64,000 bases of DNA from Magnolia sinica. Lineage: Eukaryota; Streptophyta; Magnoliopsida; Magnoliales; Magnoliaceae. Location of the stretch: NCBI RefSeq assembly GCF_029962835.1, contig NC_080584.1:84534862-84598861 (forward strand), written 5' to 3'. Below, piece after piece: positions 9,261 to 32,523 of the stretch (within the stretch, counting starts at the first letter, position 1; the number at the start of each line of letters is the position of its first letter). Position numbers and translations under genes: made by a program. Below the pieces are notes generated by a model. That model worked only from the letters and a program-made list of their open reading frames with translations, was not told where the DNA came from and did no database searches.

Positions 9261-9516
9261 ATAGAAAACAAAGAACTTATTGCAACGGCCATATTTTGTA
9301 AAATGTGATCCATTTTCCCTCTGCTTCTTGTGAGTTGGCCACTGCGCGCCTACACACTGCCTTGCTTTCCTATTCCTTGTCATCATTTCATGAACCTGGT
9401 TTCTTCCTACATATACATATAATCACTCTGCTTGTGTAAAATGTTGTCATAAATAGAATACCTAAGAGAGTAGTTCCTAGGGTGATGCAATTTAGCTAAA
9501 TAACATTTCACCTACA
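9261..9516 (+). other. 3' flank of the IST1-like gene
   Basis: Likely 3' untranslated region and downstream spacer. AT-rich with no further frame; no unambiguous AATAAA signal was identified, although several near-matches exist. Confidence 0.4.
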
Positions 9517-10220
9517 TGTTGTTTGGATGGAATAATACAATGTTTGAATGTGCCCTTTAAATGTTTTTTTCCAGATTTCTATTCCAAATAGAAACTAAAA
9601 TTTCAATTTGAAAAGTGGGTGTGATTCTCATGTTTTTCTCCGCCCACATAATTGACAACAAAAATGCAAGCCATTTGATCAATGGCCACTGATCAAATGG
9701 TTGGATTCATCCAATCAAAGTAGTTCCCAAGAGTTATTATCAATCAAACGTGGGGCCTAAATGATTGATGATCAAGGTTAATGATTCAAACTTCTTTTTT
9801 TTTTTTCCTATCTTCAAACCCTGCAAAAAAATATATATAAAAAAGGAGGTTCTCAAATGAATCAACACAGCCATGTTGTAATTTTATTTTTTATTTTTAA
9901 ATGATATCCACTACCCTTAAAAATGCTCTTATTTCAACATGTTACCAAACATGCTTATTTTAAATAAGAGCTGTTTTCAGATTTGAAAAAGTAATTTTAC
10001 CAAATGAGCTTATTTAAAACAACTGCTGGAACAAAAAGAGGTTATTAGAATAGCTCTTATTTCAAAAGTTCTTATTCCATTAGAGTAGAGATGCCAAACG
10101 AGATAATGCAATGTTTAAACCATCGGAAAAAATAAATAAATCTGATTATATTATACAGTAGACACAATTAACTGCTTTCTCTAAGTATATGTACATTTCC
10201 TCCATCTTTCACATCTCTAC
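9517..10220 (+). repeat. Direct repeat, left copy (partner at 13089-13686)
   Basis: Begins TGTTGTTTGGATGGAATAAT and ends 'ccatctttcacatctctac'. The same ordered sequence recurs about 3.57 kb downstream. The left copy is longer; it contains a stretch (about 9880-10020) absent from the right one. The two could be the terminal repeats of one non-autonomous element of about 4.2 kb or a local duplication. No retroviral-type coding sequence lies between them, so the class is left open. Confidence 0.8.
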
Positions 10221-12419
10221 CTTGTATGAGGAGGACTCCAGGTTTGGTGCTCAGGTTGGGTTGCAAACTGGGTCCTCTTGAGCTTGGGTTGGATTGAGAG
10301 TCTACTTGGGCTCAGGTTGATCTTCAATCCAAATCCACCTGTCCAAGTTTCACCCCTAACGGCAGCTAGATCGAGGGCATGTTGCAATGATCCAAATTGC
10401 CTATATGGACCATGCGGAGTGGGTGGTACCCAAAATCTTCCAAAACCAAAACCAACACCTGCCGACGAACAGTTGAAATAGTAATTCCCACCACCAAAAT
10501 CGTCCAAAGTATATGCAGGTTCCACCCTGATATTTATATGCCATCCAATCTACTTATATGATTTGCCACACTGGGATGAATGGATTCCCTGAAAATCAGG
10601 ATATTCCAAGACTCATCTTGGCCATATATAGTAAATTTAGTATGATTTGACAGTATTCCTTATGGCGTGGCCTTGATTTTAGGATCCATTGTGAAAATTA
10701 GAGAGAGAACAACAGCAGAACATTATTTATAAAAAAAAAAATCAAAAAAATAAAATAAAATAAAATTCTATAGCCACCATCTACATTGAAACAGAGCTAC
10801 CAGCATCAGCCCCAATAAAAGCAGGGTGCATGAATCATCAGCAGGATTCAAACTCAGCAATAGCAGAAACTGACAGAGATGCAACTGGCCAGTTGTGCAG
10901 AGGAAGAAGACGGCCACCAGCAGCATCCAGATGCATGACTCCAAATGCTACATCAATTCACAGCTCTGCACAGCAGCTAGAGAACACCATTGCAGAAAAG
11001 GCATCGCCACAGCTGGGACAAACATGAACCTAAAAATAACAGCAGCTGCTGCCTAAAATGCAGGCAGCAACAGCACACATCTAGCAACTGCTGGATCCAG
11101 CGAACAGAAATAGACTGCATTGGGGATGTTACTGATACCAATCAAAGAGCCCAAAGATTACAAGAAACCAAAATTAGAATGTATTAGACTAATAAAAAAA
11201 AAAAAACAATAAGAGAAATCATAAAGCCAAGGGACAAAACTATATGAGAGAAGAAAGCCACCTATGGTAATTTCTCATTTCAGCCAAATTGAGAATTGTG
11301 AAGGAGATTCACTTGTATCTTTGGAGGGGGTTTATATCTTAATGCCCCAGTTGCAATTTGCTCTCCAAAGATTACAAGTCTTGGAAGATGTTGAGGTGCT
11401 GCTTCTATTTCACAGGAACGCTTTCCCATTTTATGACTGGTGGTGATCTCCAAAGAATGAACTCGCCAGTTTTGCAAGCATTCAGTCCAACTATTTGCCA
11501 GTGATGATTGAAGAAGGCACTTGAGGTGTATTTCAACTTTTGAAACTTAACTGTGACAAATCTTATCTAGAAAGATTCTAATAATCTTCTCAACCTCATC
11601 TGTGTAACCAGCTTCATGTTTGGATCGAGCTAAATTTTAGACAGTTTGATCATCATGGTGGGGCACACCACACAAGTTCCATAATGCGAAAAGGTCATTT
11701 TAGTCATTTTTATCATCCAAAGGATTGTTTTAGGGCTTTAGAAACGTCAATGCCCTTTTTTGTGAAAATCATAAATCTTTCAGAAATTTTTTAGAAGAAG
11801 AAACCTAAAAGTATCATATGAGCTAGATTCTTCCAAACCCGAGTATTTTGTAATTTGTTCCTTCGATGCTTGGTTCAATTGCCAAACTGTTAAAAACTTG
11901 AGCTTTTTCCGACTGTATGCCTCACTTTTAACTCACAATCCTTTCCGTGCGTCCCAAACTTTACTTTCCCAAACTATTATCTTGTTGTACGGATATAGTT
12001 TTAATAGATGAAAATGCCCCTTGATTATAATTTGTATTCCTTTCACTCACACCCAAAAAAAGTCATAACTCATTTGTATGAAAATATCCCTTCTTTCACC
12101 CCCTTTCTTCCTTAAATCTCCATTGATTCTCCATATACTATCATTGTACATCTACCATCTTCCATCTTACTCAGGGTTACGTTCATTCCCTCAAACTAGA
12201 TGCATCGATAAACGTGGAATCTTGAAGGCTTTTCTCCGTAAATCGTGTTTCACTTCAATGCACTCTTCTTCTTCTTCTTCAATACGGATTTCACTGATAC
12301 GACGACTGTGAGAGGTAAGGATGTTTAAAATCTAAAGAATTTATTGAGATCTCAGGCAATTCCACCTAGAAATTCATGAAGCTGACCAAGAAGTCGGCAA
12401 AATACTTGCTCAAATTCAA
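10221..12419. other. Region between the direct repeats; no gene recognised
   Basis: Holds an A-rich tract (10730-10770), a CAG-rich segment (10800-11110), another A run (11190-11206) and T-rich DNA. Open frames of 60-102 aa occur on both strands but show no family resemblance. The segment 11260-11480 has a fairly continuous frame on either strand and may be a decayed gene or element piece that I could not identify. Confidence 0.45.
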
Positions 12420-13080
12420 CGGAACTTGAGCAACCTCATGAATTTCTCAGTCAAATTGCTCGAGTTCTCTGTCAATTTAATGAATTTCTCGTTCAATTTC
12501 ATCGAGTTATCGGTCAATTTCACTAAGTTATCGATCATTTTTATGAAGTTCCCAGTCAATTTCACTCAGTTTGCAGTCAATTTCATGAATTCCTCGCTCA
12601 ATTTCAACGAGTTGTCGCTCAATTTTGATAAGTTGTCGGTCAATTTCGATAAGTTCTTGGTCAATTTCATGAAGTTTTTGGTCAAATTCATAAAGTTCTC
12701 TATCAATTTTATCTAGTTCTCGGTCAATTTCGTGAATTTATCAGTCAATGTTATCTAGTTCTCAGTCAATTTCATGCAGTTATTGGTCAATTTCAAGAAG
12801 TTTGCGGTCAATTTCACGAGGTTTCATGGTCAATTTTACGAAGTTCCCAGTCAATTTAATGAATTTCTCAGTCAATTTTATGAAGTTCTCGCTCAATATC
12901 ACTCAGTTCTCAGTTAATTTCTTGAAGTTCTCGGTCAATTTCCATAAGTACTCTGTCAATTTAGTGAATTTCATTGAGTTCTCGATCAAATTTAATAGCT
13001 TAAAACTCAATTTCACTTAGTTATCAGTCATTTTCATTACGTTCTCGGTCAATTTCATTAAGTTCTCGATCAATTTGGTG
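12420..13080 (+). repeat. 21-bp minisatellite, about 31 copies
   Basis: The unit is about GTCAATTTCATGAAGTTCTC plus one base, repeated with variation across some 650 bp. Because 21 is a multiple of three, long frames translate as a 7-residue repeat (S-V-N-F-M-K-F and variants), which is why it looks protein-like. Frames are broken by stops in the array, there is no start context, and flanking DNA is repetitive, so I treat it as satellite DNA. It ends about eight bases before the right direct-repeat copy. Confidence 0.9.
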
Positions 13081-13088
13081 GTCACTGA

Positions 13089-13686
13089 TGTTGTTTGGAT
13101 GGAATAATACCATGTTTGAATGTGCCCTTTAAATGTTTTTTTTTTTTTAATTTTTTTTCTCCAGATTTCTATTCCAAAAATAAACTAAAATTTCAATTTG
13201 AAAAGTGGGTGTGATTCTCTTGTTTTTCTCCACCCACATAATTGACAACAAAAATGCAAGCCATTTGATCAATGGCCACTGATCAAATGGTTGGATTCAT
13301 CCAATCAAAGTAGTTCCCAAGAGTTATTATCAATCAAACGTGGGGCCTAAATGATTGTTGATCAAGGTTAATGGTCCAAACTTTATTTTTTCTATTTTTA
13401 AACCCTGCAAAAAAATAAATAAAAAGGAGGTTCTTAAATGAATCAACACATAGCCATGTTATAATTTTTTTTAAAATGATATCTACCTAGAACAAAAGGA
13501 GGTTATTAGAGTAGCTCTTATTTCAAAAGCTCTTATTCCGTTATATTAGAGATGCCAAACGAGATAATGCAATGTTTAAACCATTGGGAAAAAAAAAAAA
13601 AAAAAAACTGATTATATCATACAGTAGACACAATTAATTGCTTTCTCTAAGTATACATACATTTCCTCCATCTTTCACATCTCTAC
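13089..13686 (+). repeat. Direct repeat, right copy (partner at 9517-10220)
   Basis: Co-linear with 9517-10220, starting TGTTGTTTGGATGGAATAAT and ending 'ccatctttcacatctctac', with a shorter middle and a longer T run near 13138. Both copies contain the short palindrome-like 'tgatcaatggccactgatca'. Confidence 0.8.
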
Positions 13687-14051
13687 TGTGTATAAGGATG
13701 GCCTCTAAGGTTAAGGTTGACCACTGATCTGGCTGGCCACCTAATAACCATTGACGGTAGTCTAAAAACCGTAGAAAATCAATCTTAGCCATCAAATCCA
13801 TGGTACACTTTGGACAGTTGCAGAAGAAGAAGAGCAATAAATAGCCATCAAATCCACATTGTGTTTTGATGCATGGACACAAGGATCCATGATCCATATA
13901 CTGCTATGCAACATGCACACGTACACGAGGCTGAGGGTTGCACCTGCCATAGTAAAGTTGCCGGAGGGATGTGGAGTAGATAGCGTGAAAGCCTTTGTCC
14001 ATTTTGTAGATAGACATCAGTATTCCAGCATCTCCCTTGGGAGCGGATTAG
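13687..14051. other. Intergenic; dispersed repeat shared with 62870-63010
   Basis: The piece around 13858-13925 ('gttttgatgcatgga', 'atactgctatgcaacatgca') reappears in diverged form near 62880-63005 ('gtttcgatgcatgga', 'atactgccaaacaacatgca'), indicating an unnamed dispersed repeat. No gene. Confidence 0.5.
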
Positions 14052-14305
14052 GTGAGGCCCTTATAATGGGTCCACCTTGACATACGTGTTTTATATCCAT
14101 GCTGTCCATCTGTTTTGCTAGATTATTTTAGGCCATGAGCCCAAAAATGAAACAGATACAAATCTCAAGTGGACCATACCATAGGAAACAATGGTGATTG
14201 ACCATTAAAAACATCTCGTGGGCAACAAAAGTTTGGGCTCATTTTTGGGCTCATCCTCTAAAATTATTTGAACATCAAGGTGGGCCACACAGTAGGAGCC
14301 GCACC
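14052..14305. mobile_element. GGGCCCAC-family short inverted-repeat element
   Basis: Shows the family's left arm ('gggtccaccttgacatacgt', 'tatccatgctgtccat'), the interior 'caagtggaccataccatagg', and a right arm ending 'catcaaggtgggccacaca'. About 250 bp, non-coding, shorter than other copies and probably internally deleted. Confidence 0.6.
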
Positions 14306-15193
14306 ATCTTGGCTGAGGTTGGGTCACACCTAATATGCTCCCCTCGCTTGGGCACCACAATATTCAAATTTTGTGGACAGCCCTGTCCACGTACAGGTCT
14401 GTCTTAAGTGAATGCTTCTGTATCCATCCACCTGGAACTAACATCTTATGCAGTAGAGTTCCTTGGTTAGTCATGACACAGTTGCAAAATAGGATTAGAC
14501 CCGAGTGCCTGTAACCAATGTCCAATATATCTAAACTAGAGAACTGGAATGTTTTGTTTTGGTGCTTTTGTTCCTATAAAAGTAACTTCTGCTTTTTTGT
14601 TTCTAAAATTTCGGTACTTCATGAAAAGAAAAGAAAAGAAAATAAAGTTCAGCTGGTGAAGTGTTCAGGAAATTAGTTCGACAATGGAATGGATCATTTC
14701 GGACAGCTGGTTAAGAGGTTTCCAAAGGAACCAATTCCTTTCAAGTTGGAATGCGGTTCTGCTCAAAGAAGGCAGAGCAGAACCATGGAGCGTTCTGGTT
14801 GGACATGAGGTGGTGTGTAGTGTATGCAATTCACCCATATTAATTTATGTAGCTTCTGTACTCATTGAGTTTTTACTAACTGGGATATAAAGATTTATTG
14901 GTTCTTGTGTTGATTTTCTTTTTTCTCTAGTTTTTTAGTTAATAAAATTCCAACATTTATATATATATATATATTTTAAAAAAAGGAAAGAAAAAATAGA
15001 AAAGAGAAAAGTTGGAAGAAACAAGGAAAAAACTGCAAAGAATTAACATGTGTTGTCAATGATATTCCATATTGATTAATGTGGATAATAGTTTAAACCA
15101 TAGGCGAAAGTCATTCTGGCACAACTTTGCAAGGCTCTCTTTACAAATACACAGGAGGGCAGTAGCCATCAAACTTATTTAGGGAGAACATTC
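14306..15193. other. Intergenic, nothing recognised
   Basis: A/T-rich DNA with a short (AAAAG)n run near 14620-14645 and a TA run near 14960. No domain-bearing frame, RNA gene or named element seen. Confidence 0.45.
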
Positions 15194-15196
15194 TAA

Positions 15197-15496
15197 GGGT
15201 CCGCTTGGATACCACCAAATAAGTTACTTTTTCTACTTACAGCAGTAGCTAAGTGACTTATTTCAGATAAGTTTGGTTTATGATTAGTTATACATAAACA
15301 AAAAATTTCCACTTAAAAGTACTAAATCACTTCAGTTAATTTTTTATAGCTTTTCTACCTTTCATAAGTTGTTGAAGAGAGGCAGCGGGAGAGACGAAAG
15401 AGAGAAGAAGCCAACGCACTTATCTTCTTAATAAGTAGAAACTAAATAAGCTACTGTGGCATAAGTAGCTTATCTTAAGATGATTCAAAAGCCCCC
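15197..15496. mobile_element. Tourist-like (PIF/Harbinger) MITE, copy 1
   Basis: 300 bp bounded by TAA on both sides (15194-15196 and 15497-15499), the usual 3-bp duplication of PIF/Harbinger elements. Ends read GGGTCCGCTTGGAT and the inverse of GGGGGCTTTTGAAT. Interior is rich in 'aataagttac' / 'gtaacttatt' blocks giving a self-complementary fold. Copies occur at 32218-32520 (opposite orientation), 32524-32708 and 16458-16541. Confidence 0.8.
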
Positions 15497-15499
15497 TAA

Positions 15500-16017
15500 A
15501 TGTAGTGGCTCATCCACAAAATTTGTTGTCTATACATACCACAATCTAGATCATCCAAATTATATATGGGCACCTTGCGGATGGAAATGGATGAAAAAGG
15601 AAAAAAACACTGGTTGGATCTAGTCTGGCCCCCTTGAATTTGGACCGATTTCAAGCATCCACTCAATGGCCACTAATTGGAAAACCCACGATTTCAAAAG
15701 ATTGGATTTTTTATTTTTTATTTTATTTTAATGGCAAATTTGAGTGTCGAGCATGCATGTTACATGTACAGTAGAGCCACCACCGTTCAAAAGATGGCAA
15801 TGACTATGTACCATAGTCTTCTCATAAATGACAAACGGAAAGGGACTGAACCACAGAGGTTAAGAAATAAGGACTCAATTTGAAATTCGAGGACAGAGAT
15901 ATCGTGCTTGATCAACCCATTTTAAAAGGATTTGGATAGTCAATTGTGTTAAAATCAATGATACACTCACGGAGAATGGAAGCCTCTTAAACACAGAAAC
16001 ATTAAAAAAATTTAAAA
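15500..16017. other. Intergenic, nothing recognised
   Basis: Short frames without domains. Immediately followed by an ATA trinucleotide run and a G run. Confidence 0.4.
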
Positions 16018-16066
16018 ATAATAATAATAATAATAATAATGATAACTTGGGGGGGGGGGGGGGGGA
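16018..16066. repeat. (ATA/ATT)n followed by an 18-G homopolymer
   Basis: About eight 'aat' units, then 'gataacttg' and a run of about 17-18 G. Poly-G of this length is unusual and could be a G-quadruplex or an assembly-sensitive spot. Confidence 0.9.
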
Positions 16067-16067
16067 G

Positions 16068-16395
16068 TGGCTCATATTGGAGCTGCTCACACCTTAATCT
16101 CCACCAAGCTATGATCCAGACTTTTCATCTAGAGGGTCTCACTGTAAGCACGCCATACTGGAGCTACTAACACCTTCTGCCCCACCAAGCAATGATCCAG
16201 ACTTCTTATCGGCCTCAGTGTAAGTGGGCTATGCTAGAGCTACTCACACCTTATGCCCCACAACAAAGCAATGATCCAGACTTTTCATCTAGAGGGTCTC
16301 ACTTTAAGTGGGTCATACCGGAGCTGCTCACACCTTATGCCCCAACAAGAAATGATCCAGAGGTTTTATCTAGAGGATCTCACTGTAAGTTGGCC
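16068..16395 (+). repeat. Tandem repeat, unit about 75-92 bp, four copies
   Basis: Each unit contains 'gagctgctcacacctta', 'gccccaccaagcaatgatcc', 'agacttttcatctagagg' and 'tctcactgtaagtgggcc'. Copies begin near 16077, 16152, 16237 and 16319. Open frames through it are repeat artefacts. Confidence 0.85.
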
Positions 16396-16457
16396 ACAGG
16401 AATAAATAAATAAATCTCACTGATCAGATATCCCATTGTCTATACAGAGGTCAATTA

Positions 16458-16541
16458 GGGGGTTGTTGGGATTGAAAGTTACCTAAGATAAGCTACACAT
16501 GCCTTAGCATCTTATCTTGATTTCTACTTATAAACTAAAGT
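16458..16541. mobile_element. Tourist-like MITE fragment, interrupted by a CACTA end
   Basis: Starts GGGGGTTGTTGGGATTGAAA after TTA and follows the same order as the element at 32218-32520 for 84 bp, then stops exactly where CACTACAACAAAA begins. This is the signature of a CACTA insertion into an older MITE. The missing MITE half was not found downstream in the window. Confidence 0.7.
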
Positions 16542-16860
16542 CACTACAACAAAACTTTGACCGCCGGTAAAGGCCTTGTCAGTAAAATATTTACCGGCGG
16601 TCAGCGTACCTTTGTAGGCATTTGTGTCGGACGGACCGCTGGTAAAGGCCCAAAAAAGCTTTTACCGATGGTCAGAAAAGTGCCAGTAAAGGCCCTGTCA
16701 GTAAAAGATTTACCAGCGGTCAGCGTACCTTTGCAGGCATTTGTGTTGGGCGCCCTACAAAGTAGGCTTTATCAGCAGTTTGCAGATTTTTACCGGCGCT
16801 TTTATGAAGCACCAGTAAGGGTATCTTGAAGTGCCGCTAAAGGTTGCTTGAGTGATTACA
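16542..16860 (+). mobile_element. CACTA (En/Spm-type) transposon terminus with subterminal repeats
   Basis: Begins CACTACAACAAAACTTTG, a standard CACTA terminal inverted repeat, followed by several direct and inverted copies of a subterminal motif of the type 'accgccggtaaaggcc' / 'tttaccggcggtcagcg' up to about 16840. The element body must lie to the right. No matching right terminus was recognised in the window, so the element is truncated, or its other end has decayed. Confidence 0.85.
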
Positions 16861-17262
16861 GCTCCTGTTTGGATAGGTTTGGTCTAGCAACAAATCTTAG
16901 GTCTGTGATGTGTTGTCTGCCAAATAGCTTCTTATTGGGTTTCTATCACTGAGTCTGCAGAATTTTCTTTATGTACTAGAGTCCTTGGAAATAAAAGAAA
17001 CGAGAAACACAACTCCCAAATAGCTTTTGATTGAGTTCTTCAATACCAAAATTTGCAGAATTTTTTTTCTTTATTTTTTTTTTCCTACATAAATCCAAGA
17101 CTAGAGAAACCCAACTCATATCTAAAGAGATAAAGTCTTGTACGATATGAGAATGCTAAGATATTAGGATTGCTAGCAACCAATAGAAAAGATCTAGCCT
17201 GTCCTTGTTATGGTCATTGTCACTTAGCCACCCACCATGAGTTGAATATTTTCGAGGTGATT
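16861..17262. other. CACTA interior or flank; no gene recognised
   Basis: AT-rich spacer between the CACTA subterminal repeats and the NPF fragment. It contains short internal repeats ('tgccaaatagcttcttattg' near 16919 and 'caaatagcttttgattg' near 17018). It may include intron or 3' untranslated sequence carried with the NPF fragment. Confidence 0.4.
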
Positions 17263-17560
17263 TTATTCACCAAGGAGACCAAGAGAGCTCAAGAATAACC
17301 CAAATGAGTAAGAGCAATAGGTCATGGCTGTTAGAAAGGCTTCCATCCCAACCATTAACTGTTTGTAGAAGAACTCAATGAGGCCCATTGCTGTGAACAT
17401 ATCTAATAACCCAAATATGAGGAACTGTGGTGCAATCCAAAAGATGGAGATTGCTTCTTTGTTTGAGGTTGTAGTCATTTCCCTTCTCTTCTTCTCTACT
17501 AGAGCTGCGGCGACCATGGGAATGAATATTAAAATAATATTTACAATAATAAGTTGAATA
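17263..17560 (-). pseudogene. NPF (NRT1/PTR family) transporter gene fragment
   Basis: On the minus strand the translation reads VAAALVEKKRREM, then ISIFWIAPQFLIFG, LIEFFYKQ and FLTAMTYCSYSFGLFLSS. This matches the C-terminal third of plant NRT1/PTR-family (NPF) proton-coupled nitrate/peptide transporters, covering two late membrane segments. Only about 85-100 of the usual ~580-600 residues are present; the frame then ends at a stop. No other NPF exon is visible, so it is a captured or relict piece. A/T-rich DNA ends the similarity on the upstream side. It lies about 0.7 kb inside the CACTA end at 16542 and on the same strand as the two fragments that follow. Confidence 0.8.
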
Positions 17561-17959
17561 CTTCCAAATACAAAAAAAGAAAAAAAAGAAAAAAAGAAAC
17601 ACTATTGATCTAGCTCTCATTCATCCCTGCCTAAAACCTACAAAACAAAATAGCAAAAAGAAATTAATTGGTATCAAAGTTAGAGATTGGAATTCAACTC
17701 GATATTGCATCCAAATACATATTAAAGCTATAAGTTCAGTACAAATTAGTCAGATGAACATACACATTAAGAAGTTTATAGCTTTTTTAGGATGGTTTAT
17801 TTCTCATTTAATCTGAAATTCGGATTTTAACATCACTTTATGATGGAAAATTTCATCATGCATAAGCTCTTCAGTGGAAAAGATTATTGGCAAAGTTAAG
17901 GGTAATGTTTTGGGTTGGGCATCTTATATAAAAGCAGCAAAGTCTGCTAATCCCCCCTG

Positions 17960-18000
17960 CTCTCTCTCTCACTTTTTTTTTTCTTCTTCTTTCTTTCTTT

Positions 18001-18031
<31 letters not shown>

Positions 18032-18058
18032 CCGCCTTTTGGCAGACATTTTAATAAA

Positions 18059-18104
<46 letters not shown>

Positions 18105-18105
18105 A
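17960..18105. repeat. T-rich tract and (CT)n microsatellite
   Basis: T/C-rich run from about 17970 to 18032 including some 23 consecutive T, then about 20 CT units at 18062-18101. Confidence 0.95.
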
Positions 18106-18169
18106 TTTTTGTTCCCCAGCACGAGGAGCTAACAAAACCTACCATCTAATTGTGCTTAGAGAGGAGTAC

Positions 18170-18729
18170 CTGCAATATGTGTAAGTACAGTTCTGATTAC
18201 ATCTGGATCCTTCAGAATGTTCAACTCCTGGCGTGTCTGTCCAATAATTTCTGCCCATTTCTGCAAATTAGACAACAAGCTTATCAGTAGCAACTTATTG
18301 AGGATTGTACTTGACACTAGTGAAAACCAGGGGAAGGGAACAAATGAAAGAAAAGACGAACTTTGAAGTTCTAACATCAAGCAAATCCCAACACTTGAAA
18401 TCTAATCCAAACAAAATTCAGTGACCTGATTCGGAAGTTCCATCAACCTCTGGAGATACTCATCCCTCTTCTGTGGATCCGTTTCTGCTTGAATCATATG
18501 ACCCACCTGGAAACATGCAAAGCAACAAGTACTCATGACTAGATAGCTGCCTTACCACAAACACATATTCACAAAGAAAATGACAATGCCTAATGCCAAT
18601 GAGCACAAGACTTATGTAATGGCAACATACCGACTCATAAAATGAATGAATCTCGCGTGGCTCAAGATCTATAATTGTTGTAGGGAAGCCAGATAAAAGA
18701 TCAGATACGAATGGTTCACTTTCGCCTAC
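18170..18729 (-). pseudogene. XPO1: Exportin-1 (XPO1/CRM1) gene fragment, three exons
   Basis: Reading the minus strand, exon A is 18631-18729 (VGESEPFVSDLLSG...IHSFYES, 33 aa), exon B 18426-18506 (VGHMIQAETDPQKRDEYLQR..., 27 aa) and exon C 18170-18260 (KWAEIIGQTRQELNILKDPD...). Each is flanked by AG acceptors and GT donors, and order and phases follow the intact gene. They correspond to the HEAT-repeat region around residues 600-690 of the ~1,075-residue nuclear export receptor. Exon C carries an extra base near its 3' end relative to the expected VLNILQ, shifting the frame. No exons before A or after C were found. Retained introns mean DNA-level capture rather than retroposition. Non-functional as an exportin. 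Confidence 0.88.
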
Positions 18730-19447
18730 CTGTAAAATATGACAAGTGAACCAAATCTAAAATTTTGGGTGCAGAACAGGAAATGGACTCTGAGGAAATT
18801 GAATAAAAATATCCAAGTGTGTGGGCAGAAACACAGATCCAATTGTGGTACTTCATTTCATAAGAGAGATTCAAGTATTGAATAGTAAGACACCCAAAGA
18901 TTTGAGATTCAATTGGCATTTTTGGAGAAAGGATCATAAGATTCAAATAGTTTCCCATTCAATTTTAACCGTAATATTCAAATGACAATTCATAAAATTT
19001 TCGAAACAATGCTTACAAGAGTTAGCATGCTTATTTTACCTGAGCTCCAAGCAAAAACACTAGAAAATCTAGTTTTACCCTTCCGTTTTCCAATAGAATG
19101 ACCAACAAATATGTCAAAGTTACTGGAACTTGAAAATAGAAACTTTGTCCAGGTCAGACCTTAATTGTGTTTTCTGTTCTTTCTTAGATGCATTTAAAGG
19201 GATTTCCATCCAAATAACCCACACACGTATAAATGTAAACATTACACAAACACCCAACTTAAGAAATTGTTGTGCAGTCATACCCCAAGGCATCTCATTC
19301 CTAGTCACCAATAAAAATGGCATGCAATGCTAGAGTTTCTCCTTCAGTGTGTGTGCGGGAATTTGAAAGCAGAGATCTCATTTTGGAGGAAGTACTAAGT
19401 CATCCAAAAATAGACATCTCAAAATAAAAGCTGAAGACAGAACTTAC

Positions 19448-19636
19448 TTCTGATTTGGTTTGTAATGATGAGAGGGTGTCAACAATGTCCTTCGGGTTGG
19501 TGTGCTCCCTTGGTTCATATTGCAAACATCAAGAAACAAGTCCAACAAGTACAGTCGCCTCTTCTGTTGAGAAGTTGCCCTCTAAATGGGAATCCATTAA
19601 CATTAGGATGTTTTTGCCCCTTATCATATCAAGAGC
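19448..19636 (-). pseudogene. BSK (brassinosteroid-signalling kinase) exon fragment
   Basis: The minus-strand 189-bp exon is bounded by CAG at its start and GTAAGT at its end. It translates as [20 protein letters not shown], then VGLVS-stop-CLQYEPRE and DIVDTLSSLQTKSE. This is the end of the kinase-like domain and linker before the TPR region of BSK receptor-like cytoplasmic kinases. The stop sits where BSKs have Arg in the ASRCLQYEPRE motif, consistent with a CGA-to-TGA change. No other BSK exon was seen. Third host-gene piece on the minus strand within 2.4 kb. Confidence 0.85.
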
Positions 19637-20092
19637 CTGCACATTGGTAACACACTCTATTGAATACATGAGAGCTTAGTTCATAGTACTCACTGGAGAG
19701 AGAAAAAAAAATGGTTTCTCCAATACAAAACATCAAAATGCAAACTACAGCACATCTTCTAGAAAATTCACAACATTATCTGAATGAACTATGCAATGCT
19801 TGAATTCTAGAAAATATTGCAATAATTAGAAGTTTAAGATTATGCAAAAGGTTGAAACTAGAATAAATTTACAGTTTATCAATTCTCTCAAAATGGGTTT
19901 TATTCCATGACCATGCTGATGAAATACCCATGCTTAGCAATACTTCTGGCCGTGCCCACATATCAACTATATTGAGCAATGCCTATGGCCACGTATAAAA
20001 CCCATTTCAACTAATAAAGATTTGCCACATTTATGTATAGACAAGTACTCTTATCATAGAAACAGACTCAAGTCTGAGAAAATCCATGCTCG
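19637..20092. other. Spacer in the gene-fragment cluster
   Basis: Mostly AT-rich, intron-like DNA, with a short local repeat around 19900-20000 ('ccatgctgatgaaatacccat', 'taaaacccatttcaactaa'). It may be carried intron sequence. No exon recognised. Confidence 0.35.
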
Positions 20093-20296
20093 AAAATCAT
20101 GCTTACCTCAGCGGGCTGGTTGCTCCCTTTTCGAATGGGCTTCTATTGTTATTCCTCTAAAAGATTGTAATGTTCTTTTGTACGGAGCTAACTGACTCGC
20201 TATCTCAGCGGGCTGGTTGCTCCCTTTTCCTCTTTTAATGAAAGTTTCTGTTATCTCTCAAAAATAAAAATAAAAATAAAAAAATCATGCTTACCT
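20093..20296 (+). mobile_element. Short retroposon (LINE 3' end or SINE) with 16-bp target duplication
   Basis: The body at 20109-20280 is flanked by perfect AAAATCATGCTTACCT copies (20093-20108 and 20281-20296). It ends 'tctcaaaaataaaaataaaa', a short poly-A/TAAAA tail, showing plus-strand polarity. Wording such as 'gggctggttgctccctttt' and 'cttttaatgaaagtttctg' resembles plant LINE 3' ends. The first 26 bases recur 97 bp later inside the element. The duplicated target includes CAGGTAAG on the minus strand, a consensus splice donor, so the insertion lies just inside an intron of an unrecognised exon (about 20297-20380). Confidence 0.85.
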
Positions 20297-21171
20297 GAAC
20301 AAACTTAAATTTCAACCAATAGGCATCAATAGCTTCTGTAGCCTCTCACTCTAACCAATCGCTAAGAAATACAGATGTTGACTTTCATATTCAAACCTTT
20401 CTGCAAGCATCTACAAGAAATACAACTAATACATTCAAAGCAGAAAAGCTCCAAACAAACAATGCATTGGCCAACACAAATCATGTGAAACACAAACCTG
20501 ATGGATCGCCTAATAGTGATTTCTTCCACATCCCAAGAGAAGTTAATCAAAAGGTAGACCACTTGAAAGGTGTATGGTGCTCTTATGCTGGAAGCAAATT
20601 CTCACCCTTTGTGAACAGGACGCCCATACTTTATGAGAGAAAAAAAAAACCAGTTGATTGGGCAAACTCAGCTGAATCACATTGAGCTGTACTGCTTCGA
20701 CTCAGTTTTCGAGCTGACTAGACAAGTCTTATTGAGTCCTTAAGTCAGTTGGGCTTGTCAGCAAGTTTCCAAGAGTCCTGGCTCGAAATCTTTTCTATTA
20801 TTGGATATGGCTAAATCTATTAGATTCGGGACTTATCAAGTGGTTTTACTGCTGGGCCCAACACTAGAAAAGGTTTTAAATGGCTTTACTTTAACCATTG
20901 ATGTTTTGTTTTAATAGTTAAACTGTTTTTATTGCACTTGATGATGATATGATGGCCCATATCTTATGGTCTTTTATTTGATTGGCATGGGATATGGATA
21001 TTTGGTGGAGGGCCATGACAGTGAAGGGATTTGATCATGAGTACATGCATAGATAAGGTAGATTCATAGACATCATTCAAATTAGGATACATAGAAGTTT
21101 GTAGGGTGGTGAAGCATCATATTGTATACCCTTGAAACTCTAACCTCCTCCTTATGTGTATATCTCATCTC

Positions 21172-21174
<3 letters not shown>
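20297..21174. other. Intergenic; one exon-like minus-strand stretch
   Basis: On the minus strand DNA upstream of the CAGGTAAG donor reads ATEAIDAYWLKFKFVQ, preceded by a stop. This is exon-like but I cannot name a family. The frame at 20467-20685 shows HIPREVNQKVDHL, faintly like an RNase H tail, but not enough to call. The rest is unremarkable. Confidence 0.3.

Positions 21175-21226
<52 letters not shown>
21175..21226. repeat. (AG)n microsatellite, about 26 units
   Basis: Uninterrupted AG run. Open frames through it are artefacts. Confidence 0.95.
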
Positions 21227-21231
<5 letters not shown>

Positions 21232-24200
21232 GACGTCCCCTCCTTTGGGGCGTTGATAAGAGAGAAGAAAAGAGAGAAAGTAGAGAGGAGCATCCTTCTC
21301 CCTTCCTCATGACATCTCTCATCCACACTTGCATGTGGTAGTCCACCTAGTGGACAACATGCGTCAACCTCGGCTCCTATCAGAGGAATTGACGATGGTT
21401 CTTTGCTCTCCTTCACCTGAGATGGATCGAGGAGAGACCTCTTAAGTTAAGAGGATTGACATCAACATAATCAGGAAAAACTCATCGCGATCAAGGTATG
21501 ATCTAAGCCATTTATTAATGGTTTATGTTCGTAGAAATCTATGTTATCAAAGATGGGAGATCCTAGGGTTAATTAGAACATGGATTTTTGAAAAGAAAAA
21601 AAAAAGTTTAAATTCCATTGCGTTTCCATTAAAATCTAACAGTAATTGCGGGAACCGTTATGTGTTACAGGGTTGTAATGCCCGCTTTGGAAACAATAGC
21701 TCGAAGGGTCTATTACGGGTTCAGTCCGTGTGTGAATGGCCATTACATAAAATTGATGAATTCATGCTGAAATTTATGGATAAGTTTCATGACGGCTGCC
21801 AACCTAATGGAACCCACCTTTCTCTTGGATTAAGACCTGTAATGAGAGCACAAAATTCCCACAGGCTCTATGTAATAGTCTATTACTTTTCCCACCATCC
21901 CAAAAACAAAAAAGTATCTTACACTAAAAAGGCTTGATAGTCTTCACAAATCTTGACAATCTTCAAGCAAAAAAAAAATCTAATAACCTGATTGCTGAAA
22001 CATTAGGGTGAAAAGAACCCAAAAAACTCCAGCTTAACAGGAAATCCCAGCCTAGCTGATGCAAACCGATTTCTGAGAAAAAAAAAAGTAGCAGAAAAAA
22101 TGCTCCTAAAATCTGATTTAAAAAACTTAAAAAGCAGCAACCTAACAACCAACAACCTGTCATAAAATCTGAAGCACCCGTAAGACGCAGCAATGATTCT
22201 CAAGCCAAACTCCAGAGAGAGGGAGGGAGGGAGGGAGTCTCTATCCTAAAGCCACACGGGGATTACTCTCATTAATCATGACTTATTCTAAGACTAATCC
22301 TCAAGAAATGTCTGCATGAGATCTCCATAAGGAGAAAAATTGCAAACTGCAAATTTTGGAGATGTATAGATTTGTAACTCTGTTAGTTCAGTTGTCATTC
22401 TGTGTAAAACTCATGATCTGGTACTTTTAGGGGATCATTTCACTTCCAGCAGGTAATATTTCTCTCGATGCATCCATCTATGCTGTCTGAAGACCCAATT
22501 GTTGCTCATGGTTTATTTCTACCCGGCAGAGGACTGAGTTCCAACCTTTGTTTTTTGGCAGCAGCATGCAATTTGTTTCCAACATTAAATCCCTCTTCTT
22601 TGACCCAAAATAGTCTCTATCCTTTTCTTTTTTATCAGATGCCTCCTACACTTTAAAACTCGGAGAGGAATTTTCTTTTATCATGCAACTTCCTCGAGTG
22701 AGTGCGTGCAGATCTATGTATCGATTGGATGCAACTCTGCAAAATTTGGACATTCGTATGCAGCAGCAACAACTCGAACTGTAAGTTGACTCTTTTCACT
22801 GTCAAGGGTGCATAGATGCATATGTATGGATGTATGAGTAATTTTGTTGTCCTTTCTTTTGAAACTTGTGTTACTCTTTCATGTGTCCATACAGAACAAT
22901 ATGGTGAGTGTGTTACTTCCATACTAGGTGGTGGTGCTGGTAATGCCGGTTCAAGCATGGCTCATGACTTGGGTAAAGTACTCTTAATCCTGTCTGGTCT
23001 TGATGTGATCTCAATATAATTCTGGCATGCAATATTCCTCAGAAGAGCCCCATGCTTGAGGTTCTATTCATCCACTGCCCTTCAGTATTCATGTATTGCT
23101 GATGTTATCATGTTAGTCTCTTGATAGATGATCATACCATAATGATATTATAATGCTTGTGTACATTTTATTTATCTTTGCATGTATGGTGGTTGAGGTT
23201 TGCTTAAGCCCATAATTGTCAAACCCAGCACATCCACATGCAGCCACACATGCCAATGTGGAAGATGGTTTTTAGACTTGGAGACTTGGATCGACTCGTT
23301 CGGTCTCGAGTCAAGTTGCGACTCGCCTGAGTTGGGGGTGTATTGGCCTGGCTTGCTCGAGTCGGGGTGACTCAAGCAGGTGACTCATGGTATCGAACTG
23401 GATCAGGCAGTGCTAGAATGAGTCTTGAAACCATGATGTGGAACATGTTTGAGATCCAAACTTCCTGTCAGGTGGGCCACAATGCTTGGATCTTTTGGTG
23501 CAAAGATCAGGTGGTTTCACTCTTCAGGTTGACCAGTGTACAAGCAAATGGATGTCTAGAAAAGTGTTTTTAGCTGTCCATTTGTCCTGTGCATATTGGC
23601 TTGCCGGAGGAATGAAGGCCCGATTCTTGCACCAGAAGATCTAAACCATGTGGTGCACCTGATGGAAATCTTTCCCTCAGATCTCAGCATGCGTTCACAT
23701 TTGCACATCTGCCTGCTTGTGGTTGGGCAGGGCTCCACACATGTGTGGGCTTGGGAAACTTCACAACTTTTGGTATTATTGGGTAATCTCATCTCATAAA
23801 TGTGTTTATTGGGTTGTTGGTATCATATAGGTCCCATCTCTTAATGTGTGTATGGCTTGATGGTAACATGTGCTTCTATTTTTCCAGGCAGATGCAGAGA
23901 GAAGACTGCTTCAGAAGCTAAAAAGTCTTGGCTACCTCGGACCAAAATCTGGAGGTTATACACCTGCTTAACCATCCACTATAATCATGAGATTGAAAAA
24001 ATTATCATTCAGGGAATAAAAAAAAACCAGAGTTAACAATCACAAGATTGAAATAGAATGATATAAATGTAGGTTGAAGCATTTCTTTCGCTGATTGTCC
24101 AAGAGCTCAATGAAAAAATCATATATTCTGTAGAATTAGCCTTTTGGATTTCTTATGTATGATATTTATAACTAATTACTATGTTATGTTGCTATCTCAT

Positions 24201-24682
24201 GCTGGCTTTGTGAAGGTACTTGGCTGTATAGGGAGGGTGTGCAAATATATTCTGCTAAAGATCAAGGCGCATGTGGATAATACCCCAAATTATTGTCTGT
24301 GGGTAATTGGAGGCAAGAACCCTGATTGAATCATGGCCAATATATTTGTTTTCGGCAAGGAAATCAGAAACTATGCAGGTGGACTTCCATTGTTCTGCCT
24401 TTTTCCATGGTAAATCACTTCCAAGTGTTGTTTTTTAAAGTCCCTACATGAAACAACTGCACTTGAGGTCCGAAGCAACTGCAAGAAAGCCATTGTGTGT
24501 ATCTGATATCACGACATAACTGCCAAACACACCAAAAATCTCATTGTTCACTTTCATCAAACATGCCAACAGCTACAACCATATCAGGGTTCGAAGAGGA
24601 TTCGAATCCAAGACTAGATCCACATGCAGACAACACTAAGAACCATCAGAACTTAACAAACAAACCATAAACCACAAGCCTT
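21227..24682. other. Intergenic, with unidentified exon-like islands
   Basis: No gene could be assigned. Exon-like points on the plus strand are (i) 22711-22782, opening after GTGCAG and closing at GTAAGT, reading IYVSIGCNSAKFGHSYAAA, and (ii) 23888-23974 after TTTTCCAG, reading ADAERRLLQKLKSLGYLGPK before a stop. Neither resembles a family I know. A (GGGA)n run occurs near 22218-22238. Around 23270-23420 there is degenerate 'gactcg' / 'gagtcg' low-complexity DNA. Confidence 0.3.
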
Positions 24683-25018
24683 TCAACTAGAAGAAAAGCC
24701 ATGCAGTAAACCTAAGACACCACCTAGACCAAGAACCACACCAGCTAGCCTTTTGATCATGGATGGCCACCTCCAACCTTGCCACCCAGCACAACAGGTA
24801 CGGAAAGGGGCATAATAGGTTTGAGATGGTGCCCAACGTCCAAAGTGGGGGATCAAACCAAACCCTGGATGTCCAAACCCATGTCCAAGTGGTCCCTTGA
24901 AACCTCCTTTGGGATGGGAGAACTTTGGCTTGTTGGCAATGATTCTTCCTTCATTACTCACAACGAAGGCGACAACAAGGAAGCCAATGATCAACAACAT
25001 CTTGCTAAGCTTCTCCAT
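24683..25018 (-). CDS. Small secreted Gly/His-rich protein, 111 aa
   Basis: Complete single-exon frame from ATG at 25018 to a stop at 24683. Residues about 1-24 (LLIIGFLVVAFVVS core) are a clear secretory signal peptide. The next segment is basic and rich in Gly, His, Pro and Phe (KGPLGHGFGHPGFGLIPHFG) with one Cys pair (TCCAG). The last 25 residues form a hydrophobic Gly/Leu stretch (LAGVVLGLGGVLGLLHG) that could be membrane-active or a lipid-anchor signal. Charge, signal peptide and tail suggest an extracellular or cell-wall peptide. I know no matching family; it could be lineage-specific. The leader upstream contains TTTATTTATTTA-type AT-rich DNA about 60-80 bp before the ATG. Real expression is unproven. 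Confidence 0.6.
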   Translation of the reverse strand: MEKLSKMLLIIGFLVVAFVVSNEGRIIANKPKFSHPKGGFKGPLGHGFGHPGFGLIPHFGRWAPSQTYYAPFRTCCAGWQGWRWPSMIKRLAGVVLGLGGVLGLLHGFSSS

Positions 25019-25514
25019 ATTAGCTTTCTACTCTGCATGATGGACTGTTTTCCTTCCTCATGTCTTAAAAATAATAATAATAAATAAATAAATAAATCTC
25101 CACATGGCGTTCAGTTGTCTTCCATGTTTGGGATGGTGTTTGTAGTGGTGAATATGGATTTTAAGGATCCCCCCCTAACATGAAAGGAGTACTTCATACA
25201 CCCTTCATTGAGCAATGGAATTACATGTGATCGCATTCATTGTCTTGCCGTTTACCTGTACATTTGGAGATCTCTTGCATCTGAGCCGTTGTCTTGCCAT
25301 TCTCGTGTTGTGTTCTTATGTTTTGGTCCGTCTATTTGTTGCATCGTTTGAATGGTTGTTTGATTGAAGGGAAGGGCCTCTGTCGATGGGGTAGCTGGAA
25401 TAACTAAAGCCGACGGTCGTATGGAGGTTTTCCCGATGGCTTTTAGCCGTTCGAGAATCTTGATAACCGCCGCCATGGGCAGGGGTTATTAAACCCTACC
25501 TTTTGGTGTTATCC
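25019..25514 (-). other. Upstream region of the small secreted-protein gene; unassigned 74-aa frame
   Basis: Contains an (AAT/AAAT)n run at 25068-25098. A minus-strand frame at 25252-25476 begins MAAVIKILERLKAIGKTSIR. It has ordinary composition but no family resemblance and abuts a GGGCCCAC-type element, so it is noted, not called. Confidence 0.35.
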
Positions 25515-25795
25515 TTACACTGGGGCCCACCTTGATAATTTGATGTATATCCATACCATCCATTCATTTTTACAGCCCATTTTAGGATGTGGTCCCAAAA
25601 ACTAGGCAGATCCAAATCTCAAATGGACCAGACACTGTTGATTGAATGCCCACCATAACTTTTTTCATAGAAGTTTTGGATCAATCTGAGTTTTGGACAG
25701 ACTTCATTTTTGGCCACGTGTCCTAAAATGACCTCCAAAAAGGAATGAACGGGGTGGATTTCTCTCATACATCACAGTGGGCCCCACGGCCCCCG
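25515..25795. mobile_element. GGGCCCAC-family element
   Basis: Left arm 'actggggcccaccttgata', 'tatccataccatccattcat'; right arm 'aatgaacggggtggatttct' and 'catcacagtgggccccacgg'. The arms are inverted with mismatches. The interior contains the family motifs 'aggcagatccaaatctcaaa' and 'gttttggatcaatctgag'. About 280 bp, non-coding. Confidence 0.65.
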
Positions 25796-25904
25796 CCTGG
25801 CATTTCAACACAGGAAGCAAACTCGCATCCCTTTCTTGCAGGCAAAACCTGACGGAGGGAAATCCCCAAAATTTCTCTCCCCCTTGCCTGCATCTCTCTC
25901 TAAT

Positions 25905-26045
25905 ATGTGGCTCTCTTATATGTGGTGTGGTCCACTTGGAGTTTCGATCTACCTCCTTTTTGGGATCATGACCTAAAACTATATTTTAAAATTAACGGAC
26001 GGAGTGGATAAACCTCATGCATCACGGTGGGCCCCACAGAGCCCC
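25905..26045. mobile_element. GGGCCCAC-family right-half fragment
   Basis: Starts with 'atatgtggtgtggtccactt' and ends 'catcacggtgggccccacag'. Only the right half of the element is present. Confidence 0.55.
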
Positions 26046-26630
26046 TAACATGACCGTTCGTCTTTACCTCCGTGTGAAGGTAGAGCCCGCGACCTACGCC
26101 CAAAAACACGTAGGTCACGCTCAATCTATGCCCAATCCACTCGTTCCCTCTCTCTCGACCCTGCTCTCTCTATTTCTCCCTCTCCCTCTCCCTCTCCCTA
26201 GTGTTTTCTCATTTTAGCACGCGGCTTAAAGCAGGAGCAGCCATTCTAGTTGATTCCTCAGCTGCGAGGTGGTAGCAATGGTAATAGTAGAATGCTGCCT
26301 TTAGGGCCGTTGATTCAAAAGTAGAAGGTTGATAGATTTGAGGATTTTTGAATTTGGAGGTTTTTGGATTTAGGGGTTTCCAGATTTGGGGGTTTTGGGA
26401 TTGATATTGGGAGTGGAGATGGGTTGTAGCGAGTGGGTTACGGGATTTAATGGTGTTGGGGTCTTATGAGAGAATGGAGCAAAGGCTTCTCACGCCTGGA
26501 GACTCTTCAAGTGATAGGTATACTTTTCTTTCCTTGATTTATCTTCACCTTGTATTATTCATGGGTTATGGTTATTTTGTATTGATTATTCAGAAATTTC
26601 AAGAGGCTTTCAATTGAGTTAACAGAGTGG
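26046..26630. other. Intergenic; short CT-rich run and a possible LINE upstream segment
   Basis: A CCCTCT-rich run lies at 26150-26200. From 26230 to 26530 the plus strand has partially open frames with no clear match; given the reverse-transcriptase scrap that follows, it may be degraded element DNA. Confidence 0.35.
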
Positions 26631-26745
26631 CTTGCAAGGGACTTTTGGGAAGAGATCTCGAATGTAATATGAGACAGAGATAAAGCATTGGGGTCTGATG
26701 ATGTCACCATGGATTTCTTCTAAACTTGTTTGGAAGTGATTTGTA
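26631..26745 (+). mobile_element. LINE reverse-transcriptase fragment
   Basis: The plus-strand frame gives TEWLARDFWEEISNVI, stop, DRDKALGSDDVTMDFF, stop, TCLEVI. This parallels the plant LINE (L1-type) ORF2 consensus around 'EWLERPFSEEEI...DKAPGPDGFT', just before the polymerase core. It is short and carries two stops, so it is a dead fragment. Upstream and downstream extents are uncertain. Confidence 0.7.
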
Positions 26746-28123
26746 GCAACAGACGTGCATCATGTTCCTTGTTTTTCTGTATAGATTTTAGAAGTTATAT
26801 GGTGTATAGGGACCGTTTCTGGTGATCCGGACTGTTGATATGATGGGCATTCTTGTGGATGGACCATATGTGGAAAGCCTTGAAGATTGGTAGAGGTGAT
26901 TTCCTTATTTCATGGAGTTCTCTTTAATGAGTTCATAAGAATGCCTAGTAGATGTTTGTGGAAATGCCAAGGAGAGGGCCAGTAGCCCTGGTGTGTACCG
27001 CCTTGATCAAAATTTCTTCTCTTTGAATTTGGTCAGTTTGGATTCGATTGATTTTATTTTATTTTTTGGCTTCATGTCGACTAATTTGCATTATGTGAAT
27101 TTATTGTATTTTTTTTATTTAGTACGTTGGTCAGTTGATTTCTGTTTCTTGTTGGCTATAGCGGATGTTACCATCATTCTCTGTAAGTTGCTATGAATTG
27201 GTCAGCAAATCAGAGTAGTGGGTTGGTTTTGAAGAGTCCCCTGAATTAGATGTGTGGCACGATCTCCAGGCTTTAATGGGAGACATTATCCCACGAACAA
27301 GGTTTGGCAGCAGCTATAAAGAAGGTGGAATTTTCAACTCCAAACAGAACAATCTGAGGTGTTATCTACCAACCATAATTCCATTGTTTGGTTATGAGTG
27401 TTGTCTTTTGTGTAAATGTGAAAAGGTCAACAGTTGAACAGTGAGTCCTGTCTCTCGCGTGGGGGAGTGTGGAATGGTTTTCCTCATTATGAGAGGAAAA
27501 GTTAAGAAAAGGAAACTGATTTCCACCTCATTTTTTATTTTTCAAACAGAAGAGACCATCTCATAAGTGGAGTTCGTATACTTTTGCACAGATTTCCACT
27601 TAAACAAACAGGTGTGTTTGGAAGCTCAACTGAATTGAATCACAATGATTAAGCCCATTCAAGTGGAACTACTCACTGTGAGGAAGTAGCCCACAAATAG
27701 CCATTGCATTCCTTTCAAGTCCAACTTCAATCTTACATGATTGCGATTTTGAGCAAAGAACCTCAAGATGCAAAATGAGGAAGGGTGGCTAAATTTAGCT
27801 GAGGAGCGTTAATTTTCAGTACCCATTATGCTTATGGACCTACTTCTGACTATGTATGTAGGATTCCAATTGTTAATTCCACCATCAGTTGAAATCTATT
27901 GAAATCTGTGTTTGGATGCACTAAGGAATTCTATTACAATAGTCAGTCCCATAAAGTGGAAATGCAATTATCTTGCTTGGCATACATATCAAGGAACTAG
28001 GCTCCATGTAACTATAGTCTGACCACTGCTTCTCATTATTACAATTTGGTCACTCCTTCCGAAACTAGAGATCCAAATGATAATTTATTTAAATTTCATG
28101 TCATGTGCACTATCACATCGCAG
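26746..28123. other. Intergenic, nothing recognised
   Basis: Possibly more decayed LINE DNA up to about 27000. A stretch near 27250-27370 has an exon-like frame (GDIIPRTRFGSSYKEGG) without a family match. Confidence 0.35.
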
Positions 28124-28253
28124 GTTTTTTCCCACGAAAGAAAACCTACGGAGAAATGAAATTGTCAAAGAAGTGCAAGCTACTATGATGAGTATGATTG
28201 AGCAGAGTGAGAAATGTATCAAAATAGGAGAAGCCGGCAATGATGAATCCTGA
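28124..28253 (+). other. Exon-like terminal coding island, unidentified
   Basis: After a good acceptor (CACATCGCAG) a frame runs 42 codons to TGA at 28251-28253: FFPTKENLRRNEIVKEVQAT, MMSMIEQSEKCIKIG, EAGNDES. The charged, helical composition is like a genuine C-terminus, but I recognise no family and no upstream exon could be linked. It may be another host-gene fragment or the last exon of a gene whose other exons I missed. Confidence 0.3.
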
Positions 28254-29246
28254 GTGGTATGAGATTGTTCTTCTTTTTCTGGTCTGTTTCTTTCTCTTTT
28301 CTTCCTTTCTTTGATTTGAGTTTTTTCATATTATTCTTAAATATGTATTTATGTATGTATTTATATGTATCTATGTACATTTTATGCATGCATGTATGTG
28401 TGTGTATGATGCATTCAGAAGGTTTTGGCTGTTGTGGGTATTTGTGAAATCAAATGGATTGTTGGCATTTTTATTGTTTTTATTGATTTAAACTTCAGAT
28501 ACATAATTTATGATTAGTGCCTATTTGGGTTTTTCAAATATTTTTATTTTATTGTTTCATTCTTTTTTCCTTTTTTTCCTTCTCTTTTTTTTTTCTCTCT
28601 CCTTTTCTTTCTCTCTCTCTCTTTTTTTTTTTTTGCATGCAGTTTTTGTGGACTTGCTTTTGATGGATTTTCAGGAAAAAAAAAAAAAATTATTTTTATA
28701 CATTTTAATTTTTTCCTATTGTAGGAGGGAGGCTGTGGGCTGTTTGCATGCTTTCTTGTCATGAAATGTTGAATTCGCTATTAGTTGCATTTAATTTCAT
28801 TTAAGTAGGTTTAAATCTTTAAAAAAATGTTGATTAGTTTCCATCTTCTTACTTATTCAGTTAAATTTCATTTAATTGCTGAATTCGCTATTTGTTTTGT
28901 TAATGAAAGTCAACCGTTTGTTTATTCAGTTTTTCTTTTTCTTTTTGTGAATTGTAATGGTAGTGGAAGTTATCATATGTATATGTTTATTCAAATTGAT
29001 GAATGTCATTGTATGAGTGGAATAGAGAATGCAAGGCAATGACAATAGGAAGAAACCCATCTCTGTTTTTTTGGTGCGAAATGAGGTAAAAGAGCTATGC
29101 AAGCGTTCTTGTGTATTACTATGACCGTTTTTCAGTTTTTGTTCCTTTCGATGCTGCAGATGTATTGGGTGCCGAAATTTTTGTGCTTTTAGAGAAGAGA
29201 AAGATGTGTGTGAGAAGATCGAACAATGTTGGTTTTTAAGGTTTTG

Positions 29247-29298
<52 letters not shown>

Positions 29299-29940: not shown

Positions 29941-29943
29941 CAG

Positions 29944-31129: not shown

Positions 31130-31554
31130 TTAAGATTTCTCATAATTTGGCTGTGTTTTGTACAGGGTCTAAGATACTCTCATGATTTATTCAACTATAA
31201 GTTTTGGGTCAGTAAACTTGTATGCGACCCCCCCCCCCCCCCCCTTCTTTTTAGGTTGATACACAGGTGCTGAGAAATTGTATAAATGTAGTAGAAGTGA
31301 CTCAAAATCAAAACTTTTTCAAGTTGTGAACCTCAGTTTGGATGGATTGTAAATTGAAAATTATTTTCACTTTGATTACCTAATCATGGGATTAGTGGAC
31401 ACTCAATTGACGGTTGAAATGAAGGATATCCGATGGTCATAGTTCATCAAACAAGTGGCCACGAATCAGTGGATAGAAATTTTCAAACAGTATGGGTTCA
31501 GCGCTATGACTTATGCAGATTAGGTCCCAAAAATTTGGACAGTTTAATTTGGGT
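31130..31554. other. Intergenic; 18-C homopolymer at 31228-31245
   Basis: The C run is the second extreme G/C homopolymer in the window. No gene or element identified in the rest. Confidence 0.5.
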
Positions 31555-32520: not shown

Positions 32521-32523
32521 TAA

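Follow-up and report, generated by a model that had tools for sequence, protein, structure and literature searches.

A CACTA terminus beside joined fragments of three host genes in Magnolia sinica: a probable Pack-CACTA element and its sister copy

Pack-CACTA elements of Arabidopsis, rice and maize are non-autonomous CACTA transposons with host coding DNA, and maize elements with several gene sources are known (PMC8903248, in the part of the article available). Here we describe such an element from Magnolia sinica. It lies in a stretch of 64,000 bp (C12:84534862-84598861, hereafter the window, numbered from its first base), where a CACTA terminus is accompanied by pieces of an NPF transporter gene, of the exportin-1 gene XPO1 and of a BSK kinase gene. 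The element is a well-documented example of this known kind.

The nearest described case that we found is Tgm-Express1, the CACTA element of the soybean wp allele (Zabala & Vodkin 2007, PMC1947982). According to the accessible portion of that text, it likewise carries pieces of several host genes that are unrelated to one another (five there), introns as well as exons, and retains canonical splice borders. Tgm-Express1 measures 5.7 kb, has both ends, resides within a gene and gives chimeric spliced transcripts, whereas the copy in the window is without a right end and its sister copy spans 22.8 kb. CACTA elements with captured fragments are also described for Chenopodium (PMC8978399, available excerpts). 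The captured pieces are similarly found in the 5' region of the element, but the Chenopodium examples lie upstream of transposase domains, none of which is seen in the 13 kb scanned of the sister copy. Gene capture by pairs of neighbouring elements is described in the consulted part of a review (PMC13317346). No paper combining CACTA, XPO1, exportin and transposon was found in the literature searched.

The element, its sister copy and its ends

Very probably, what lies here is the left-hand portion of a non-autonomous CACTA element (Pack-CACTA) carrying joined fragments of three host genes. Three direct observations underlie this reading: the CACTA terminus itself, a sister copy elsewhere with the same fragment order and the same XPO1|BSK junction, and a parent gene for each of the three pieces. 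The strongest support comes from the sister copy, because it starts at its own CACTA terminus, within different flanks, and has the fragments in the same order. An earlier note on this DNA had proposed a candidate Pack-CACTA, which on these grounds is largely right.

The sister copy was found by a genome search with positions 16542-20380, which like all genome-wide searches below covers the 1.84-Gb assembly of the same plant. At least 66 matches were obtained; the best 40 of 627 candidates were scored, so counts from this search are lower bounds. One match set, C1:44577305-44585996, spans nearly the whole query. The two copies are homologous from CACTACAACAAAAC at C1:44577230 as far as window position 20797 (C1:44586410), with 85-95% identity, and the order NPF-XPO1-BSK is identical in both. 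The block thus extends beyond 20380, where the earlier note had ended it. The note had also reasoned that another CACTA copy ending before the fragments would contradict capture; the C1 copy does not end there.

Directly left of the terminus no match exists between window and C1 (E ≤ 1e-8, rows above 60 bits). Within 9000-16541 only 88 bp (14089-14176) match the C1 stretch, and these map inside the C1 element. The three bases ahead of the terminus are AGT in the window and CTT at C1. It might be argued that an ordinary segmental duplication or translocation made the second copy, with CACTA ends that did not mobilise the fragments: the right edge of the window is about 3.1 kb short of the end of the 84,602,008-base contig, duplications are common near chromosome ends, and the right boundary at 20797 is without a CACTA end. 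We regard this as very unlikely, given that the left boundary of the shared DNA is the terminus at both places, that the preceding 3 bp differ, and that the C1 right end (see below) is flanked by CTT. The shared order and the shared XPO1|BSK junction also largely refute the idea that the fragments are independent insertions which only resemble one unit. Three different parents and differing divergences would fit that idea, to which we attach next to no probability.

At the left end, CACTACAACAAAAC opens the element at 16542 and is followed by direct and inverted copies of a ACCGCCGGTAAA-type motif. With at most 3 mismatches, the window contains 12 occurrences of the subterminal motif TTTACCGGCGGTC against 4.63 expected, and 12 is reached in 0 of 100 shuffles; all six occurrences with at most 2 mismatches fall within 16559-16801. 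A genome search with 16542-16860 listed 30 rows, one of them the window. Of the other 29, 17 have a CACTACAA[C/G]AAA terminus 0-130 bp beyond the end of the match and 12 have none there. The terminus and repeats reported in the earlier note are therefore real: a CACTA-type terminal sequence with subterminal repeats, as in Pack-CACTA elements, is present at the left end.

This terminus cuts an older miniature inverted-repeat transposable element (MITE) that we take to be PIF/Harbinger-like. In a self-BLAST of the window, 16451-16541 matches 32715-32625 and 16484-16534 matches 15477-15428. A whole relative of the interrupted MITE is located at about 15187-15507 and further relatives at 32225-32715, where two copies of the family overlap or are nested. 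The other half of the interrupted MITE was not found in the window by self-BLAST.

Since Helitrons often hold several intron-bearing gene fragments in one orientation, they might have captured the fragments, leaving the CACTA end as a bystander. Maize Helitrons with gene fragments are mentioned in the accessible portions of PMC13317346 and PMC1947982. However, the homology shared with C1 begins at the CACTA terminus, and a scan of 14000-26000 on both strands for a GC-rich hairpin before CTRR-T gave one candidate, at 14795, outside the block. A Helitron origin is accordingly highly improbable.

A plausible right end is present in the C1 copy at 44600042, where CACTACAAGAAAGT is read on the reverse strand. 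CTT adjoins both C1 ends (44577230 and 44600042), as a matching 3-bp target-site duplication. The family motif lies 63-75 bp inside this right end, and no other left-type end with at most 3 mismatches occurs between the two. Its last base is reached by 9 of the 58 other genomic matches to its last 400 bp. The C1 copy therefore has both ends in one element; a terminal inverted repeat is not found in the window copy. The right terminus that the earlier note had wanted to see is available on C1 and not convincingly in the window. No transposase domain was detected in C1:44587001-44600042 (13 kb; Pfam, six frames, E ≤ 0.1) or in window 16501-36399 (Pfam, six frames; E ≤ 1 for part, E ≤ 0.1 for part).

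Two right-type matches within 3 mismatches occur in the window, and neither was accepted. The one at 50680 scores at the level of shuffles, has a different subterminal sequence and is not adjoined by AGT; the one at 61108 is weaker, with neither AGT nor the family motif adjoining. As an observation in its own right, 50668-50680 (minus strand) is a further CACTA-type end, CACTACAAGAAAACAGG.

Several points weigh against the Pack-CACTA reading. No convincing right CACTA end was found in window 20798-64000, and across 16861-64000 the best right-end match scores no higher than shuffled queries. The window copy thus appears as a truncated left-hand relic that, with its right end missing, cannot be measured as a separate element. 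The C1 right end was chosen from four right-type candidates beyond the shared block (36 kb examined), so that a chance CTT match has a probability of about 6%, and it differs from the left terminus at 3 of 14 bases. In the C1 copy the transposase scan began at 44587001, beyond the retrotransposon, and the part shared with the window was scanned in the window only. The terminal region differs between window and C1 by a Kimura two-parameter distance (K2P) of 0.127, against 0.03-0.07 for the interior; this excess could come from CpG decay or from an exchange of ends. Lastly, the earlier note held that the same arrangement in relatives without a CACTA end would speak against capture. A complication in this respect is found at C10 11.87-11.97 Mb: four copies of XPO1 exons plus a BSK-intron piece, in another order, with no NPF piece among the matches listed. 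Neither a left end nor the subterminal motif was found in two 10-kb C10 stretches, one of which has one weak right-type match.

Captured pieces, their parents and the order of capture

All three pieces named in the earlier note are present on the minus strand. The NPF piece matches Pfam PTR2 (E=1.1e-7) and the PDB chain NRT1/PTR FAMILY 2.10 (E=0.00032). The three XPO1 exons (18631-18729, 18426-18506 and 18170-18260) match exportin-1 with E=2.5e-18, using a query of the three exon peptides joined and ended ahead of the frameshift. The BSK piece matches PDB 4i92, kinase At5g41260 (E=8.1e-17), presumably a BSK. Splice sites had been described as mostly kept. This applies to the XPO1 and BSK exons, whose borders retain AG/GT in phase 0; the NPF piece, cut mid-exon on both sides, is without splice sites. 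The common orientation had further been taken as a sign of capture. We drop this argument: three captures would share one orientation by chance with odds of 1 in 4, which is not significant, and an HVA22-like exon in C1:44587001-44600042 is on the opposite, plus strand (E=1.5e-5, just under Pfam's cut-off). Coordinates of the features are given in Table 1.

Table 1. Features of the window copy and its immediate surroundings (positions in the window; Mb positions refer to the assembly)
Feature	Position	Strand	Basis
MITE left part, cut by the CACTA insertion	16453-16541	-	window self-BLAST
Presumed 3-bp target-site duplication, left copy AGT	16539-16541	+	sequence; partner not found, right end missing
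CACTA left terminus with subterminal inverted repeats	16542-16854	+	motif counts, genomic matches
Element interior common to the C1 copy, partly to C1:51.49 Mb and C19:24.19 Mb	16855-17166	+	
NPF transporter piece, last exon, both ends cut mid-exon, frameshifted	17167-17515	-	93% to NPF gene C2:23.95 Mb
Stretch that follows NPF sequence in many copies across the genome	17516-17798		
XPO1 (exportin-1) piece, three complete exons with introns	17818-18849	-	parent C12:47.36 Mb
BSK kinase piece, one complete exon (19448-19636) with flanking introns	18847-19911	-	parent C4:81.27 Mb
Remainder of the block common to the C1 copy	19912-20797		
Truncated LINE-type 3' end with A-rich tail, later insertion	20109-20280	+	empty site in C1 copy
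Homology to the C1 copy stops	20798		

Host coding sequence inside the element has its parent genes elsewhere, as expected for a Pack-CACTA. The NPF parent shows a full last-exon frame and exon-like frames upstream. In the XPO1 parent the three exons are in frame, and CRM1_C exons come next on that strand, at 47.381-47.397 Mb; one CRM1_C row is flagged with a TAA, likewise the matching C1 and C17 rows, which perhaps sits at an exon border. The BSK parent has the exon without the stop of the window copy, and downstream lie more exons that we assign to BSK by their motifs. The C4 BSK exon has 49 matches, of which the next one that is open and not part of the element lies at C2:48.78 Mb (87%). 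The XPO1|BSK junction falls at about 18841-18849 and is spanned by the C1 copy at 97.9%; BSK similarity ends near 19911. The sequence that follows starts with a repeat having 37 other listed matches. An exon-like stretch near 20281-20345 (minus strand) gave, together with its neighbours, one chance-level PDB match (E=1), none in a second PDB try at E ≤ 5 and no Pfam match at E ≤ 5.

Both copies have received later insertions. The window copy holds an insertion that we place, from its tail structure, among the long interspersed nuclear elements (LINEs); it is bordered by a 16-bp duplication (20093-20108 and 20281-20296), and the C1 copy has the empty site. Conversely, the C1 BSK exon holds a long terminal repeat (LTR) retrotransposon of about 5 kb, with an LTR pair 91.8% identical and CTTAT on both sides; it is included in the C1 span given above.

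Aligning the fragments to their parents, as the earlier note had advised for dating, identified the parents without giving a robust order of capture. K2P values for window-parent, C1-parent and window-C1 are 0.070, 0.085 and 0.060 for NPF; 0.052, 0.061 and 0.071 for the XPO1 exon stretch (about 700 bp); 0.103, 0.093 and 0.045 for a further 116 bp of XPO1; 0.051, 0.057 and 0.051 for BSK (about 750 bp); and 0.040, 0.067 and 0.033 for a further 280 bp of BSK. From these values, the distance between the split of the copies and the parent works out simply at 0.047 for NPF, 0.021 and 0.075 for XPO1, and 0.029 and 0.037 for BSK. Judged by the longer stretches, NPF would have been captured first; since the short XPO1 stretch points the opposite way, distances alone leave the order unsettled.

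A stronger argument comes from the distribution of the NPF piece. At no fewer than 17 further loci, at least 69 bp of NPF are joined to 17516-17795, with no XPO1 or BSK among the matches listed, which suggests that NPF was captured earlier than XPO1 and BSK. Of the loci examined in sequence, six have a CACTA-type left end next to the NPF piece: the window, C1:44.58, C1:51.49, C19:24.19, C7:7.77 and C9:70.12 Mb (with a mutated terminus in C9).

The C10 arrangement may reflect an independent capture or a secondary relocation. Two of its copies (11.87 and 11.91 Mb) are 96% alike over 5 kb, and the XPO1 piece shows a distance of 0.045 to the parent and 0.050 to the window. The exon beside the arrangement is, judging by motif, presumably of an AGC-type kinase. 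Elsewhere on C10, at 60.74 Mb, a CACTACAAGAAAAC end (position 1928 of the stretch examined) is separated by about 2.8 kb from a tandem pair of the BSK-intron piece 19719-19909 (4768-5159).

Taken as a Pack-CACTA, the element would have arisen in steps. A CACTA element would have captured a piece of the C2 NPF gene, after which the NPF-bearing form spread. One descendant would then have added the XPO1 (C12) and BSK (C4) segments as intron-bearing DNA, joined end to end, and a transposase acting in trans would have mobilised the composite to at least two sites, C1 44.58 Mb and C12 near its end. The LINE in the window copy and the LTR retrotransposon in the C1 copy would be later arrivals, and the right end of the window copy would have been lost later together with the remaining MITE target. 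The locus thus offers a well-resolved gene capture in a CACTA lineage, with a widespread NPF capture and two fragments added in one sub-lineage. Cases with known parents and a known junction can test how CACTA elements acquire DNA.

Coding state of the captured exons

Judged from their sequence, the captured exons are in decay, and nothing clearly indicates that coding is being maintained. In the window copy, codon 36 of the BSK exon is TGA, XPO1 exon 3 has gained 1 bp and the NPF piece has frameshifting indels of 1 and 2 bp. In the C1 copy, XPO1 exon 2 contains a stop, exon 3 has lost 5 bp, the NPF piece has gained 4 bp and the BSK exon is interrupted by the retrotransposon. No disabling change was seen in common between the two copies. 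The ratio of nonsynonymous to synonymous change (pN/pS) between the copies is 0.77 (31 nonsynonymous and 11 synonymous differences); against the parents it is 0.57 for the window and 0.37 for C1, values that include the parents' own branches. These samples are small and do not prove neutrality.

Because the BSK exon and the three XPO1 exons share phase-0 borders in one direction, an in-frame chimera is possible, and because no disabling change is common to both copies, its frame may still have been open at the time the composite moved. That a transcript of the ancestral element was spliced into such a kinase-fragment/exportin-fragment chimera, and that a third or further copy elsewhere in this species still makes this protein, or else antisense or small RNA directed against XPO1 and BSK, is nonetheless unlikely. 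Since both copies have the look of relics, any effect on the plant is probably small.

Neighbouring features of the window

An IST1-family gene is located at about 6518-9260 (plus strand), and a DYW-type PPR gene that looks intact at 44641-46500 (minus strand). At 30576-30665 (plus strand) lies an exon-like piece of the F-actin capping protein beta subunit gene (Pfam E=9.1e-8). No second piece of that gene passed in 26401-36399 (Pfam), and it is perhaps another stray fragment. Tandem repeats of GACGGTC type, like the subterminal repeats of other CACTA families, occupy 52163-52574 and 60605-60955. Between 57331 and 60078 the window holds a long degenerate telomere-type array of AACCTA and CCCTAAAC-like units, with a GC skew of about -0.8 in 58001-60000.

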